Below, piece after piece: positions 2,477 to 21,064 of a stretch of 22,197 nt of DNA; position 1 is the first letter of the stretch; the number at the start of each line of letters is the position of its first letter. Both the position numbers and the translations under genes were made by a program. The notes beneath the pieces were generated by a model, which saw nothing but the letters and a program-made list of their open reading frames with translations, was not told where the DNA came from and made no database searches. Origin of the DNA: a virus. The stretch covers positions 1-22,197 of IMG/VR virus record IMGVR_UViG_3300042373_000178; one strand, given 5' to 3'.

Positions 2477-3289
2477 ATGGCTGCATATGGTCGTGGCAGT
2501 TATGGAGTTGGGCAATACTCTGAACCACGGGTAGGGTACGGCGGCGGCTCCTACGGGGTCGGCAATTATTCCAGAGGCTCCTTTGAGCCTGCTGTCTCGA
2601 TTTCTGCAACAAGCGCCATGTCAGTTGGCGCAAGTGTTGTCTCCAACGTATCTGTATTGATCGAATCTGCCAGCACCATGTCGGTGTCGGCCACCAGGTT
2701 TACGTTTGCAGGTTTGACGGTTTCCAGCCAAAGCGCCATGACGGTGAGGGTCGTTGCGCTGTTTGATGCGGCGGCTGCCATTGCGGCCACCAGCAGCGTG
2801 GCAATTTCTGGTCTGCGGTATGCCATTGGCGCATCCACATTTGCGGCGGCATCTAGCGCCAGCGTGAGTGCCACCAGGTTTGCTTTTGCTGCTTTTGCTG
2901 CGGTGGACGTAAGCGCCATGACGGTCAATGCGGTTCGAGTGCCGCTGATTCAGATACTGATTGAAGACTTTGGCGCAATGACGGTCAGCACCAGCGTGAT
3001 CGTCAACCAGGCTGTGCTGATTCAGGCCCAATCTGCAATGACGATCAGCGCCACCCGCAGGCAAAGTGCTGCGGTTGTTTTTACTGGTGTGTCCAGCATG
3101 ACGGTGGCGGCAAACCTGAAATGGGTTCCAGAGGGTGACACGCCAGAAACCTGGGACACAATTGCCGACACAAACGAATCATGGACACCAGTGTCTGACA
3201 CGACAGAAACATGGGAAGCGATTGCAAACACCAGTGAAAGCTGGACGCCAATCGCGGATAATTCAGAAACTTGGCAAATTGCCGCATGA
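2477..3289 (+). CDS. Repetitive structural protein with beta-type and tryptophan repeats
   Basis: This 270-residue low-complexity protein has three parts. Residues 1-40 are Gly/Tyr/Ser-rich, with GRGSYGVG and GGGSYGVG. Residues of about 41-212 carry imperfect repeats built around SAMTVSATR, spaced roughly 20-26 residues, as expected for a beta-solenoid or extended fibre. The C-terminal end has six tryptophans at an exact 10-residue spacing (216, 226, 236, 246, 256, 266) in alternating ETW and ESWTP units. It lies between two tail fibre genes and is probably a tail or fibre component. I have no specific function for it, and no signal peptide or membrane segment is seen. Confidence 0.75.
   Translation: MAAYGRGSYGVGQYSEPRVGYGGGSYGVGNYSRGSFEPAVSISATSAMSVGASVVSNVSVLIESASTMSVSATRFTFAGLTVSSQSAMTVRVVALFDAAAAIAATSSVAISGLRYAIGASTFAAASSASVSATRFAFAAFAAVDVSAMTVNAVRVPLIQILIEDFGAMTVSTSVIVNQAVLIQAQSAMTISATRRQSAAVVFTGVSSMTVAANLKWVPEGDTPETWDTIADTNESWTPVSDTTETWEAIANTSESWTPIADNSETWQIAA
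2580..3110 (+). repeat. Degenerate in-gene repeat encoding SAMTVSATR-like units
   Basis: Short coding repeats recur here with cores such as AGCGCCATGACGGT, seen near 2730 and 2920, and close variants near 2610, 2680, 2970, 3035 and 3095. Spacing is irregular, about 60-80 bases. They encode the repeated Ser-Ala-Met-Thr-Val strands of the host gene. Confidence 0.6.
3122..3276 (+). repeat. 30-base coding period with tryptophan every 10 residues
   Basis: Six TGG codons recur every 30 bases, with a 60-base super-period that alternates TETW-type and ESWTP-type units. The DNA copies have diverged at third positions while the protein pattern is kept. Confidence 0.75.
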
Positions 3290-3297
3290 GGTGAAAA

Positions 3298-4113
3298 ATG
3301 GCTGATACCACGACCACAAACCTATTACTGACCAAACCCGAGGTCGGTGCATCGACTGACACCTGGGGAACCAAGATCAATACTGATCTGGACTCCATTG
3401 ACGCTTTGTTTGATGCGGGTCCAGTGCTGAAGGTGACAAAGGGCGGTACTGGTGGGGCTACAGCCTCTGCTGCACGGACTGCCCTTGGTGTTGCCATCGG
3501 TACTGATGTCCTAGCTTATGACTCAAACCTCCAGAGTTTTGTCACTGCGTTTACGTTGCCCACAGCCGATAGCACAGCAGACTTTGTGCTGAAGACAAAC
3601 GGTTCTGGCACATTGGGTTTTGCGGCTGCTGCTACAGGCGATGTAACTCTTGCTGGCGCTCAGACCTTTACAGGCACAAAGACCTTTGCTGGCACATCCT
3701 CTGCCCAAGCAATCATCCTGAACGATGCAGCAGAAGTCACCACAGTCTCTGCCACAGCAGCTACAGGCACTATTGCTTACGACATCACAACACAGTCGGT
3801 GCTGTACTACACCAGCAACGCATCAGCTAACTGGACAGTGAACTTTCGAGGCTCAAGCGGCACATCATTGGACACACTGATGTCCACAGGCCAATCCATG
3901 ACCGTGGCTTTCTTGGTGACTCAAGGCTCAACTGCTTACTACAACAGTGCTGTGCAGATTGACGGTACAACTTCTGGCGTGACTACGCGCTGGTTGGGCG
4001 GCGCTCCGACAGCGGGTAATGCAAGCGGCATTGACAGCTACCGCTATCTCATCATCAAGACAGGCAGTGCAACCTTTACCGTCTTGGCAAGCAACACACA
4101 ATTCAAGGCTTAA
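3298..4113 (+). CDS. Tail fibre-like protein with conserved attachment-type N-terminus
   Basis: The 271-residue protein opens with the block [20 protein letters not shown] followed by [11 protein letters not shown] recognise this as a common N-terminus of phage tail fibre proteins, where it probably anchors the fibre to the virion. It continues through [17 protein letters not shown], a fibre-like linker, and Thr/Ala-rich repeats ([12 protein letters not shown]). The C-terminal half is a compact beta-rich domain with NWTVNFRG and YRYLIIKTG. The start has a clear GAGGTG ribosome site overlapping the previous stop. The gene lies three bases before a putative receptor-binding protein, so the two may form one appendage. 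Confidence 0.75.
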
Positions 4114-4116
4114 TCT

Positions 4117-6051
4117 ATGCCATTACAAGCAACAAGTGGTGCGGCTAGTTACGATGCTTTTGGTGGCGGCGTACCTGTTGTGCCTAACTACATTGAGGAT
4201 GTGTTCCAGACTTGGCTGTACACAGGCAACGGCTCTACACAGACGATCACTAACGGGATTGATCTGGCGGGTAAGGGTGGGCTTACGTGGCTTAAATCTC
4301 GTTCTGCCGCAACAAACAATTTCTTGTTTGACACGACACGGGGCGCGTTAAACGAAATCAACAGCAACACCACAGAAGCTCAAGCATCTCTTGCAAATAG
4401 CCTGACAGCGTTTAACTCTAACGGTTTTTCTTTGGGGAGTGCTGCTGGCATTAACGTCAACGCAGCCACCTACGCCTCATGGACATTCCGAGAGCAAAGT
4501 AAATTTTTTGATGTGGTGACGTATACGGGGGATGGCGTAAACAACAGGGCAATTGCCCACAGTTTAACGTCTGCTCCCGGCTGTATTATCGTCAAGAGAA
4601 CAAGTTCTTCTAACGACTGGCGCGTTTACCACCGATCAATGGGTAGCCCTGCTCAGAACTACTTTATGAGCCTGAACGCAACACAGGCTGCTTTCGATAC
4701 ATCGGTTGCAACGATGTGGCCGTCTGCACCAACCAGCACAGCTTTTTTTGTCAGCGATCAATCTGAAGTAAACGCTTCTGGCTCTACTTACGTAGCCTAC
4801 CTATTCGCCCACAACGCAGGAGGCTTTGGCCTAACTGGTACGGACAATGTGATTTCGTGTGGGTCGTTTACGACCACTGGAGCAGTTGTTAACGTTACTT
4901 TGGGTTATGAGCCGCAGTTTTTGTTAGTCAAGAGAACGGATGGGGTAGATGATTGGCGAATCATTGACAACATGAGAGGGTTTTCGGCAGACAAAGATGA
5001 CCAGATACTTTATCCAAATTCATCTGCCGCCGAAGTAAATTTAAACCCGTACATAGGCCCGACAGCAACCGGATTTTCAACAGCGGCAATCACAACGGGG
5101 CGCACCTACATCTACATCGCCATACGCCGTGGCCCGATGAAAGTGCCTACTACGGGGACGAGTGTGTTTGCGCCTGTGATCGGTAACGCTAGTTCATCAG
5201 CACCTTTTACAACCTTTAATACATCATTTACAGTGGACGGAACAATATACCAAGCAAGGACTGGAAGCACGGGATACGAAGAATCTCGGCTGCAAGGAAA
5301 CGGTAGATATTTGCAAACAGCATCTACTGCGGCTGAACTGACTACCGGCGTGGTTGTCTGGGACAGACAGACGGGGGTTGGCTCAACGTCAAGCATAAAT
5401 CTTAGCGACTATATTGGCTGGATGTATCGCCGCGCTCCCGGCTTCTTTGATGTGGTTTGCTATACGGGGACTGGAAGTGCAAGGACTGTGGCGCACAACT
5501 TGGCAGCAGTGCCTGAGTTGATCATTGTGAAGCGTAGAAGTGGCATTGCCGGTTGGCCCATATATTCAGCGCCAACAGGCATAAATAAACTATTGTTTCT
5601 GAATCTCACAGACGCAGAACAAGGCGACCCAAGCAACACATATTGGAATAACACATTACCAACTACATCTGTGTTTAGTCTTGGTAGTAATGTTCCCAAT
5701 GCATCTGCTCAGACATATGTAGCCTACCTCTTTGCAACCTGCCCCGGCGTAAGCAAGGTCGGCAGTTACACAGGCACCGGCACAACACAGGCTATTGCTT
5801 GCGGCTTCACTGGCGGTGCAAGGTTTGTTCTCATTAAGCGTACAGACTCAACGGGTGATTGGTACGTGTGGGATTCTGCCCGTGGAATTGTGGCTGGCAA
5901 TGATCCATACCTCCTGCTCAACAGCACAGCCGCTCAAGTGACGGGTACGGACTACATCGACACATCGGCTACTGGCTTTGAGATCAGCAGCACAGCGCCC
6001 GCAGCTATCAATGCCAGCGGTGGAACATTCGTGTTCCTTGCCATAGCGTAA
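4117..6051 (+). CDS. Multidomain receptor-binding type protein with DUF7483-like repeats
   Basis: This 644-residue protein is built of about five related beta-rich modules. Each contains a YTGxG or SFTTTG opening, a VKR or IKR strand followed by a D-W pair, and often an AYLF or FLAIA ending. Modules begin near residues 30, 130, 247, 442 and 548. The phrase FFDVV opens two of them, and IGWMYRRAPGFFDVV is typical of proteins I associate with DUF7483. These are found in phage tail and receptor-binding proteins. The modules before 330 and after 440 are separated by a segment without the pattern. The location next to a fibre gene and before a tail assembly chaperone supports a host-recognition role. 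Sugar binding is plausible but unproven. Confidence 0.75.
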   Translation: MPLQATSGAASYDAFGGGVPVVPNYIEDVFQTWLYTGNGSTQTITNGIDLAGKGGLTWLKSRSAATNNFLFDTTRGALNEINSNTTEAQASLANSLTAFNSNGFSLGSAAGINVNAATYASWTFREQSKFFDVVTYTGDGVNNRAIAHSLTSAPGCIIVKRTSSSNDWRVYHRSMGSPAQNYFMSLNATQAAFDTSVATMWPSAPTSTAFFVSDQSEVNASGSTYVAYLFAHNAGGFGLTGTDNVISCGSFTTTGAVVNVTLGYEPQFLLVKRTDGVDDWRIIDNMRGFSADKDDQILYPNSSAAEVNLNPYIGPTATGFSTAAITTGRTYIYIAIRRGPMKVPTTGTSVFAPVIGNASSSAPFTTFNTSFTVDGTIYQARTGSTGYEESRLQGNGRYLQTASTAAELTTGVVVWDRQTGVGSTSSINLSDYIGWMYRRAPGFFDVVCYTGTGSARTVAHNLAAVPELIIVKRRSGIAGWPIYSAPTGINKLLFLNLTDAEQGDPSNTYWNNTLPTTSVFSLGSNVPNASAQTYVAYLFATCPGVSKVGSYTGTGTTQAIACGFTGGARFVLIKRTDSTGDWYVWDSARGIVAGNDPYLLLNSTAAQVTGTDYIDTSATGFEISSTAPAAINASGGTFVFLAIA

Positions 6052-18903: not shown

Positions 18904-19088
18904 TTTTCGTCCTCATCCAGTTTGATTTTCCACAGCGCCATCTCCCGGCGCTTCACACGCTCCAGCATGGCCCGCGCCACATACGCACGGCTGCGCAGGT
19001 CTTGCGGGATGGCGTGGCCACTGCCCTCAGGGTCGAGCAAATCATTGAGCAGGTCGATGCCTGCATCCAGTGCGGGTGTGAGGCTCAT
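18888..19088 (-). CDS. 66-residue hypothetical protein downstream of the methyltransferase
   Basis: The gene starts at ATG 19088, which shares ATGA with the methyltransferase stop, and AGGAGA lies about eight bases upstream. A longer frame from 19142 would overlap the methyltransferase by more than 50 bases and lacks this ribosome site. The product has helical segments (LDAGIDLLNDLLD, then LRSRAYVARAMLERVKRRE) and an acidic tail. It has no cysteine cluster, signal peptide or membrane span. I do not recognise a family. The coupling suggests it is made together with the methyltransferase. Confidence 0.7.
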   Translation of the reverse strand: MSLTPALDAGIDLLNDLLDPEGSGHAIPQDLRSRAYVARAMLERVKRREMALWKIKLDEDEKCQGD

Positions 19089-21064
19089 TTCAAATTCTCC
19101 TGAATTCTTTTCCCAATCCACCGTACATTTGGGACGGCCCATGAGTTGCCCAGTGCTTTGTATCTTGGCCCATCTGGTGACTCATCTTTCTTTCGCCAAG
19201 GGATGTTGGTGTAGTTGTCTGGGAAGCCTTGAAGGCGCTCACACTCAACAGGTGTTAGGCGGCGAACTTGCATTCCAACAATGTGTGATGCGGCCTTTTT
19301 TTCATCGTTGTAATCAAACTCATAACCAGCAGTTAAAGTTTGGGCGGTTTCGGCATAAGTTACTGGCTGCGCCACAGTGTTGTCGTATACACCGCCAGCC
19401 GCGCACCTAAGTGCTGCCGTTGTGTCTGATTGAGTTTGGTTGTAAGCATCAAAAGCCATCGGGTTCTTGGCCTCCAATGTCTGGCTAACATTCAAATCAG
19501 CATTGATTCCTTGATTGCTTTGAACACTACTGAATGTGATTGGCTGCGCCACAGCCGCGCCAGCCGTACCACCACCTTTGCTGACCTGCAAAGTCGGGCA
19601 CATCTCGCCGGGGCTTGCGTTGGTTCTATAGTGGCTGAATGCAATCGGCTGCGCTACCCCCTGAGTTGCATGGGTGTCCACCGTGTAAGCTGTGCCATCA
19701 TCATTCCAGCCACGCCCGTTCTGTGCCTTTTCACGGGGTGTTACGTCTTGCAGGGCTATAGGCTGAAACACTGCTGGCGGTGGACTGTTGGTATCCAAAC
19801 TGGTTGAGTACTCCTCATAAAACTTGCCAGCCTGATTGCTGGTGGTGTTGTGCATCTTGGTGGTGTAAGCCAACACATTCTCGCCTCCATTGTTCCGGCC
19901 TTGGGCAAAAGCAATGTCAGACACACATGGGTCTTGTGTTCCGTGAACAACGTAATTGAATGTATCTGGCGCTTGTATGCCCTGCAAACAGTTTAATGTG
20001 TTTGCCACAACAGGGATCAACTGACCAGCATCACCCGGCATACCTCCCTCACCTGGCCTATTTACACGCAATGTTGGTGCGCAGTCTGGAACGAACAAAG
20101 GGCATCCAGCGTTCACATGCTGATCTTCCAACCCTTGTTTTGTGCCAAACGTGGTGTCAAGTGTTGATGCAATATCAGCAGGCCACCTTTTTACTGGCGC
20201 AAGATATGCCCCGCGCTGGCTGAAAATCTCTTGGTTGCTGGAACCAACCCCACCACTACCCTTAGCCGACTGGTTCAAGGTCGGGTGAGGGTAGTCTCCA
20301 TCCCAGTGGCTACGGCTTACAACCATTGCCTCAGCCTCTACTCTTTCGTTGCCTGTGCGACTGAAAGGAGGGCCGTTTGTAACGCAGGGGGCAATTGCTT
20401 GCCCCGTTTCTCTGCTCGGCGCAGTATCCCGGCGCACGCCGTCGAACTCAAAAAGAACCGCTGCGGGATCGAAGTCTGCTCTAGCACTTGCGACAACGAA
20501 CACACGCTTGCGTCGTTGGGCCACGCCGAAATATTGGGCATCGAGAACTCGCCACGCGACTGCTCTTTTGGGTCCAAGCACATAACCAGCGTTCGTCCAT
20601 TTTCCCCCTGTCGGTTCCAAGGGGTTATTTTCCCCCGCGAGCCCAGCAAGGAAGCAACCAAAGGCGTTGTCTTTGGTGGAGAGAACTCCGGGGACGTTTT
20701 CCCAGAAGACGATTGAGGCTGGCTCTCCTCGAACAGATCGAACATGGTCAATTGCATTTGCGATACCTACAAATGTGAGTGAAAGATTTCCCCGTGCGTC
20801 ATCAAGGGAGTTGCGAAGACCAGCCACTGAAAATGCTTGGCAAGGTGTGCCACCACAGAACACATCTGGCGCTTCAACTTCACCAGACAAAATGCGCTCG
20901 GGCAACAAGGTCATGTCTCCCAGATTGGGGACATCGGGGTAGTGGTGAGCCAGCACCGCAGAGGGAAACGGCTCAATCTCAGACAGCCATGCGGCTTTCC
21001 AGCCAAGTGGATGCCATGCAACGCTGGCGGCCTCAATGCCGGAGCAGACAGAACCAAACCTCAT
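19085..21064 (-). CDS. Cytosine-C5 DNA methyltransferase with long repeat-rich insert
   Basis: Canonical C5-methyltransferase motifs are present: FGSVCSGIEAAS (3-14, AdoMet site), GGTPCQAFS with catalytic Cys75, WENVPG (121-126), QRRKRVF (183-189), RRLTPVECERLQGFP (601-615) and YKALGNSWAVPNV (635-647). It transfers a methyl group to cytosine C5 in host or phage DNA, probably for protection or regulation; the target sequence cannot be read. At 659 residues it is far above the usual 330-420. The excess lies between motif VIII and motif IX (about 190-600), where target recognition belongs. That part holds many TL-centred short repeats and four VAQPI-like units. The gene shares ATGA with both neighbours, and GGAG lies eight bases upstream of the start. 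A second frame is nested in it at 20338-20757. Confidence 0.93.
   Translation of the reverse strand: MRFGSVCSGIEAASVAWHPLGWKAAWLSEIEPFPSAVLAHHYPDVPNLGDMTLLPERILSGEVEAPDVFCGGTPCQAFSVAGLRNSLDDARGNLSLTFVGIANAIDHVRSVRGEPASIVFWENVPGVLSTKDNAFGCFLAGLAGENNPLEPTGGKWTNAGYVLGPKRAVAWRVLDAQYFGVAQRRKRVFVVASARADFDPAAVLFEFDGVRRDTAPSRETGQAIAPCVTNGPPFSRTGNERVEAEAMVVSRSHWDGDYPHPTLNQSAKGSGGVGSSNQEIFSQRGAYLAPVKRWPADIASTLDTTFGTKQGLEDQHVNAGCPLFVPDCAPTLRVNRPGEGGMPGDAGQLIPVVANTLNCLQGIQAPDTFNYVVHGTQDPCVSDIAFAQGRNNGGENVLAYTTKMHNTTSNQAGKFYEEYSTSLDTNSPPPAVFQPIALQDVTPREKAQNGRGWNDDGTAYTVDTHATQGVAQPIAFSHYRTNASPGEMCPTLQVSKGGGTAGAAVAQPITFSSVQSNQGINADLNVSQTLEAKNPMAFDAYNQTQSDTTAALRCAAGGVYDNTVAQPVTYAETAQTLTAGYEFDYNDEKKAASHIVGMQVRRLTPVECERLQGFPDNYTNIPWRKKDESPDGPRYKALGNSWAVPNVRWIGKRIQENLK
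20338..20757 (-). CDS. Overlapping frame inside the methyltransferase gene, conserved-type phage protein
   Basis: This 139-codon frame lies wholly inside the methyltransferase gene, in the +1 frame over its residues 103-242. The product starts MQLTMFDLFEESQ, continues with SSSGKTSPEFSPP and SAWPNDASVCSLSQVLE, then ends with ACAGILRRAEKRGKQLPPAL. I recognise the motifs GKTSPE, WPNDASVCSLS and GILRRAEKRGK from a widespread unnamed phage protein family, so I do not treat it as an ordinary shadow frame. That recognition is memory, not a search. The ribosome site is poor (TAGG, about eight bases upstream). Expression could come from internal initiation. The alternative is that database members are themselves shadow annotations. 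Confidence 0.6.
   Translation of the reverse strand: MQLTMFDLFEESQPQSSSGKTSPEFSPPKTTPLVASLLGSRGKITPWNRQGENGRTLVMCLDPKEQSRGEFSMPNISAWPNDASVCSLSQVLEQTSIPQRFFLSSTACAGILRRAEKRGKQLPPALQTALLSVAQATKE

Follow-up and report, generated by a model that had tools for sequence, protein, structure and literature searches.

A second protein is apparently encoded within the C5-cytosine methyltransferase genes of many phages

In many phages, P1 among them, one stretch of the C5-cytosine DNA methyltransferase (MTase) gene appears to be read in two frames, the second of which is kept by selection. Comparison of relatives indicates that the nested open reading frame is almost certainly a gene for a real protein, and this protein probably works together with the MTase. 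We infer, with somewhat less assurance, that it is a second subunit of the same enzyme.

The analysis started from a 22,197-nucleotide stretch of viral DNA (IMG/VR record IMGVR_UViG_3300042373_000178), hereafter the window, on whose minus strand all features described below lie. Its MTase gene (positions 19,085-21,064, frame 0) encodes 659 amino acids that match PF00145 (E 2.9e-35), phrog_116 (E 1.5e-86) and TIGR00675, and the PF00145 domain with motifs I-VIII, IX and X identifies the product as a C5-MTase; motifs IX-X are found at 19,088-19,267. As the initial annotation had pointed out, the +1 frame of this gene contains an ORF of 139 codons plus a stop (20,338-20,757), with an ATG start and without internal stops, and all three sequences named there, GKTSPE, WPNDASVCSLS and GILRRAEKRGK, are present in its translation. 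The same bases give QYFGVAQRRKRVF and NISAWPNDASVCS in the two frames. In particular, MTase motif VI (ENVPG, 20,687-20,701) coincides with the nested GKTSPE, and motif VIII (QRRKR, 20,504-20,518) with WPNDAS. The ORF had been described as running from ENVPG to QRRKRVF; it does cover both, but starts before the former and ends well past the latter. The first position of a nested codon is the second position of an MTase codon, and MTase third positions are nested second positions, so the demands of the two frames are almost opposite. The conserved part of the nested protein is its C-terminal core of three predicted helices (residues 86-136, 20,350-20,502), which is under strong purifying selection.

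Relatives of the nested product are numerous. At E<=0.01, tblastn returned 165 phage records; it also returned 532 plasmid records, mostly P1-like and from Escherichia and Salmonella, and at least 424 IMG/VR loci. The match at P1 Dmt has 49% identity across 98% of the query, and other relatives are found in P7 and in phages of Pseudomonas, Vibrio, Aeromonas, Caulobacter, Mycobacterium, Ruminococcus, Faecalibacterium and Streptococcus. Low-GC phages are represented as well, for example by the Streptococcus phage Javan422 locus (GC 0.35). All of the best 80 viral loci have the same +1 register and an MTase frame open across the nested product, and in a wider first set an unbroken MTase frame and the same register were observed in all but 2 of 203 profile hits. 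The nested gene is deeply conserved in phages of Proteobacteria, Firmicutes and Actinobacteria, including P1 dmt, with a remote form in a methanogen virus.

The initial annotation had asked whether homologues occur away from MTase genes. Nearly all lie inside them in the same register, and the few exceptions are fusions to the C-terminal half of an MTase, one of them without overlap, and an 81-aa core gene in Mycobacterium phage Thibault. A search for standalone copies in samples of Clostridia and Gammaproteobacteria gave matches in 26 of 291 and 3 of 274 genomes, respectively, nearly all again in MTase genes, and PADLOC applied to the relatives produced only a few weak MTase-like matches. In three Clostridia or metagenome-assembled loci (L164, L180 and L177) the nested frame is interrupted by a stop or a frameshift, with the core downstream intact. 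Chromosomal MTases of Clostridia (L182-L191) have an open +1 frame of 160-209 aa with LSDILEEDVPEKYYLSQK and without GILRRA; the nested frame may extend to host-borne mobile elements.

Gene finders avoid nested genes, and this one has almost entirely escaped annotation as a result. The GenBank records inspected annotate the MTase and leave out the nested ORF, except for Streptococcus phage MM1, whose ORF14 is annotated as nested in ORF13, and Thibault, where the 81-aa core gene is gp104. The product had also been assigned to a common protein family, which is only partly correct. Searches of Pfam and NCBIfam found no family for it, but PHROG 16143 (139 aa) covers the streptococcal version: streptococcal relatives are its members (E 1.5e-76), and 40 of 56 relatives match it at E<=0.01. 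The window protein does not match this PHROG at E<=1, and the streptococcal form, including MM1 ORF14, lacks the GILRRAEKRGK of the window protein. PHROGs 16143 and 1008 are both named "DNA methyltransferase", and their inspected members are nested ORFs of MTase genes, so that the name seems to have been taken over from the host gene. We found no description of the nested family as a conserved dual-coding gene in the openly accessible literature that was searched.

The core is related to a segment of other MTases. Its HMM profile also finds single-chain MTases, where the match lies in the MTase frame a short way past motif VIII (7.7e-10 for L197, 4.9e-9 for L327, 1e-7 for L340, and weakly for mtbP of SPbeta). 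In L197, the Bacteroides phage dmt, the segment is GILLKDILEDEVDEKYYLSNK; it aligns with FELNTFVKDLL...HLVIDRK of M.HhaI and with KKIKDILVDSSNYKY of M.MpeI, that is, with the stretch where the catalytic domain passes into the recognition domain. These HMM hits are the evidence used here, as an hhalign comparison of the nested core with the in-frame segment is biased by the selection of both sets by motif pattern.

Fused and split forms also connect the nested protein with the MTase. In two Anaerotignum loci (L447 and L448), the frame-0 ORF stops a little beyond motif VIII, and it is the nested ORF that continues through the recognition region to motifs IX-X, making a protein of 552 or 598 aa. 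The same join is observed in a gut phage (L483) as far as the frame is open (340 aa), and in L484 a 487-aa protein with a nested-profile match of 8.5e-19 follows the first half without overlap; both are unverified metagenome records. The L484 MTase (2647-4437) thus consists of two tandem non-overlapping ORFs, the second opening with the nested-type domain, while the first half seems to be frame-shifted upstream. Fusions to the C-terminal half may be derived curiosities. Faecalibacterium phage Lelie (L087, 2737-4034) has an apparent circular permutation, with the motif I region after motif X in one ORF; a nested-type N-terminus (MECIQLSLSGKMFPEL) precedes motif VIII in the frame of the MTase, as though the two frames had changed places. 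In Thibault (L103/L487, 61538-63339 of the record), the MTase is split by an HNH endonuclease gene, and gp104 (81 aa) is the surviving nested core with a replaced N-terminus.

A real nested protein could nevertheless be independent of the MTase, acting for instance in anti-restriction or regulation, with its placement being historical or co-regulatory. Such a role would suit a short protein under its own constraint in accessory phage genes, and Thibault keeps the gp104 core gene despite its split MTase. We consider it somewhat unlikely, given that the protein is nearly always found with the same MTase in the same register, and that its core is related to an MTase segment and occurs fused to the MTase C-terminal half.

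The translation start of the nested gene is conserved. The xAT|G context of its ATG (20,755-20,757 in the window) is shared by 80 of 81 relatives, even though only 40% of the Asn codons of these genes are AAT. In Clostridia, a Shine-Dalgarno sequence GAGGTG is located about 8 nt 5' of the ATG; it is supplied by an MTase Arg codon for which AGG is used in 69 of 72 cases, compared with 407 of 2217 Arg codons overall; the same ATG-AGG makes a nested-frame TGA a few codons before the nested ATG. In the window, TAGG (20,766-20,769) provides both a weak Shine-Dalgarno-like site and a nested-frame TAG four codons 5' of the ATG, which leaves the ORF little room for an earlier start. Taken together, the conserved ATG, the Clostridia Shine-Dalgarno sequence and the upstream stop argue for internal initiation, not frameshifting from upstream. 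Programmed +1 frameshifting, whose product would be a truncated MTase with the nested core at its end, could account for the location of the strongest constraint after motif VIII; however, constraint begins already at the nested ATG, and any shift before that point would run into the stop a few codons upstream, making this explanation very unlikely.

The open frame of the window is by itself modest evidence. When the MTase protein was re-coded with its own codon usage, the nested frame stayed open in 2.3% of re-codings (P=0.023, given the MTase protein), so this single sequence is not convincing. The streptococcal set and the L362-441 viral clade were fetched by MTase queries only, one of them through a viral scan in the MTase frame that gave a set unbiased towards the nested frame. 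It is present in 79 of 79 streptococcal loci, in two of them as a short frame, and in 80 of 80 loci of the other set, with a mean per-sequence chance of an open frame of 0.0002 and 0.008, respectively.

Selection on the two frames was analyzed in four independent sets, about 310 sequences in all, from gamma-like phages, Clostridia, streptococcal phages and the L362-441 clade, with MTases carrying the homologous segment in frame as the control. In the set nearest the window, divergence at MTase third positions is 0.36-0.42 over residues 1-100, before the nested ORF, and falls to 0.135 from the nested start, then to 0.10, and to 0.046 over the nested core. Accordingly, the ratio of third- to first-position divergence (p3/p1) drops from 3-7 before the ORF to 0.24 over the core, where MTase first positions, which are nested third positions, vary four times more than third positions. 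The reversal is repeated in Clostridia (p3/p1 0.19-0.30), in the streptococcal set (0.42) and in the L362-441 clade (0.31), and is present but weaker in a mycobacteriophage-type set. In the control MTases p3/p1 exceeds 1.1 throughout, with no reversal.

Overlapping-frame dN/dS, in which changes are counted by their effect in both frames, leads to the same result. For the nested core it is 0.23 (0.14-0.37), 0.23 (0.15-0.32), 0.30 (0.18-0.44) and 0.30 (0.22-0.40) in the four sets, all intervals lying below 0.45, compared with 0.83 (0.62-1.13) in the control; the limits were obtained by resampling codon columns, and the sequence pairs are phylogenetically non-independent. In parallel, MTase dS falls along the ORF, from 0.93 to 0.30 and 0.16, from 1.18 to 0.65 and 0.26, and from 2.08 to about 0.4, and stays at 1.07-1.27 in the control. 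The two hallmarks of an overlapping gene, dN/dS below 1 in the alternative frame and fewer synonymous changes in that of the host gene, are thus observed, and it is firmly established that the nested core is conserved as a protein and that MTase dS is lowered across the ORF. The claim is weaker for the N-terminal half, where dN/dS ranges over 0.44-0.76 and the intervals of three sets extend to 1; a streptococcal segment upstream of the nested ORF also gives 0.32, based on few sites. The selection signal is a proof of coding, not of function.

The initial annotation had offered two outcomes, a conserved dual-coding pair or a shadow of dcm genes, and the codon-position and overlapping-frame tests in four lineages decide for the former. 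A shadow ORF, open and conserved merely through conservation of the MTase, would explain why GKTSPE mirrors the invariant WENVPG and why L327, an MTase with the segment in frame, gives a weak match to the N-terminal half in its +1 frame, and the P value of the window sequence alone leaves room for it. It is nonetheless highly improbable, since synonymous sites are frozen and non-synonymous MTase sites vary, and the relative in L484 does not overlap; dN/dS refutes it for the core, with less certainty for the N-terminal half. Least credible of all is an RNA or DNA element, any of which would lower synonymous change, as the signal has a three-base periodicity in the nested phase over about 60-140 codons in four lineages and the same protein occurs in frame elsewhere.

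The predicted structure agrees with a division of the nested protein into two parts. In an AlphaFold model based on 56 diverse rows, residues 1-87 are disordered and helices span residues 88-93, 105-118 and 124-136, with a mean pLDDT of at least 90 across residues 101-130; a core-only model agrees. Foldseek comparison of the full and core-only models with the PDB gave only short helical matches (E >2) and no fold match, and a sequence search of the PDB found nothing credible. In BFVD, the 81-aa Thibault protein (41% identity) and a phage MTase were returned.

The disordered N-terminus carries a candidate interaction motif. Residues 2-6, QLTMF (20,740-20,754), fit the beta-clamp-binding consensus Q-phi-x-[L/M]-[F/L] (PMC11139829), as do QMSLF or QMTLF in streptococcal relatives, QLDLF in mycobacteriophages and QLSLF in some gut phages; the likeness to clamp-binding proteins is at the level of the motif only. 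In two dereplicated lineages, the motif is found in 10 of 14 sequences against 0.28 expected from MTase-preserving re-coding and in 9 of 29 against 0.49, approximately 20-35 times the expectation. It is absent in other lineages, including most Clostridia (0 of 30 dereplicated sequences). A clamp tether is therefore plausible for part of the family only.

The scenario that we favor can be described as follows. The nested gene would be translated from its own internal start, and its product of about 139 aa would consist of a disordered N-terminal half followed by a small core of three helices. The counterpart of this core in single-chain C5-MTases would be the connecting segment that follows motif VIII and links the catalytic domain with the target-recognition domain. 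A change of frame after motif VIII may have overprinted this segment in frame 0, the old segment now being supplied in trans from the +1 frame. In lineages with an N-terminal QLTMF, QMSLF or QLDLF, the nested protein may have the further role of anchoring the MTase at the replication clamp. Physical partnership with the MTase and a requirement for its activity are inferred; the window MTase, with all motifs including IX and X in frame 0, could also be working alone. The complete combination, in which a subunit acting in trans completes the MTase and its clamp motif ties methylation to the replication fork, is doubtful.

This same-strand overlap is among the clearest large comparative cases of prokaryotic dual coding. 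By implication, a second polypeptide may exist for many phage C5-MTases that are regarded as single-chain, which, if true, would affect cloning, specificity assays and annotation.

The closest known parallel is M.EcoHK31I, whose beta gene, as reportedly described by Lee, Kam and Shaw in 1995, is nested within the alpha gene; here, too, a C5-MTase gene contains a second protein in another frame. M.EcoHK31I and M.AquI are two-polypeptide C5-MTases, and in M.EcoHK31I motif IX is located on the smaller polypeptide (PMC3404938). In the window, by contrast, motifs IX and X have both remained in frame 0, and what the nested protein carries is the segment preceding the recognition domain. The motif division described for M.EcoHK31I is observed in another C5-MTase clade, at the phrog_1008 loci, where nested ORFs occupy the same +1 register, frame 0 has motifs I-VIII and X but lacks motif IX, and the nested ORF supplies the motif IX-like LNPEWVEWLMGFP. 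At such loci in Clostridia and Gammaproteobacteria genomes (L492-L503), the nested ORFs have about 190-231 aa, and the layout looks like that of M.EcoHK31I alpha and beta. These ORFs differ from the family described here in having the motif IX-like LNPEWVEWLMGFPxGWTD and lacking the GILRRA core; the N-terminus of phrog_1008 (a 329-position profile) resembles that of the present family in comparison with the L362-441 relatives (hhalign probability 74%, E 2.9e-5), which is suggestive only.

Out-of-frame proteins within phage methylase genes are likewise already known, as are two-polypeptide C5-MTases (PMC3404938, PMC11855218). In phage ShiLan, an out-of-frame HNH endonuclease lies inside the methylase (PMC11855218). 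That homing endonuclease was inserted as extra DNA, whereas here there is no insertion and the MTase motifs themselves are overprinted; a homing endonuclease of this type is ruled out for the nested product, which has no HNH motif and no histidine. If the clamp reading is true, the nested protein and its MTase would provide a phage parallel to DNMT1 and PCNA, with both phage partners written in the same DNA.
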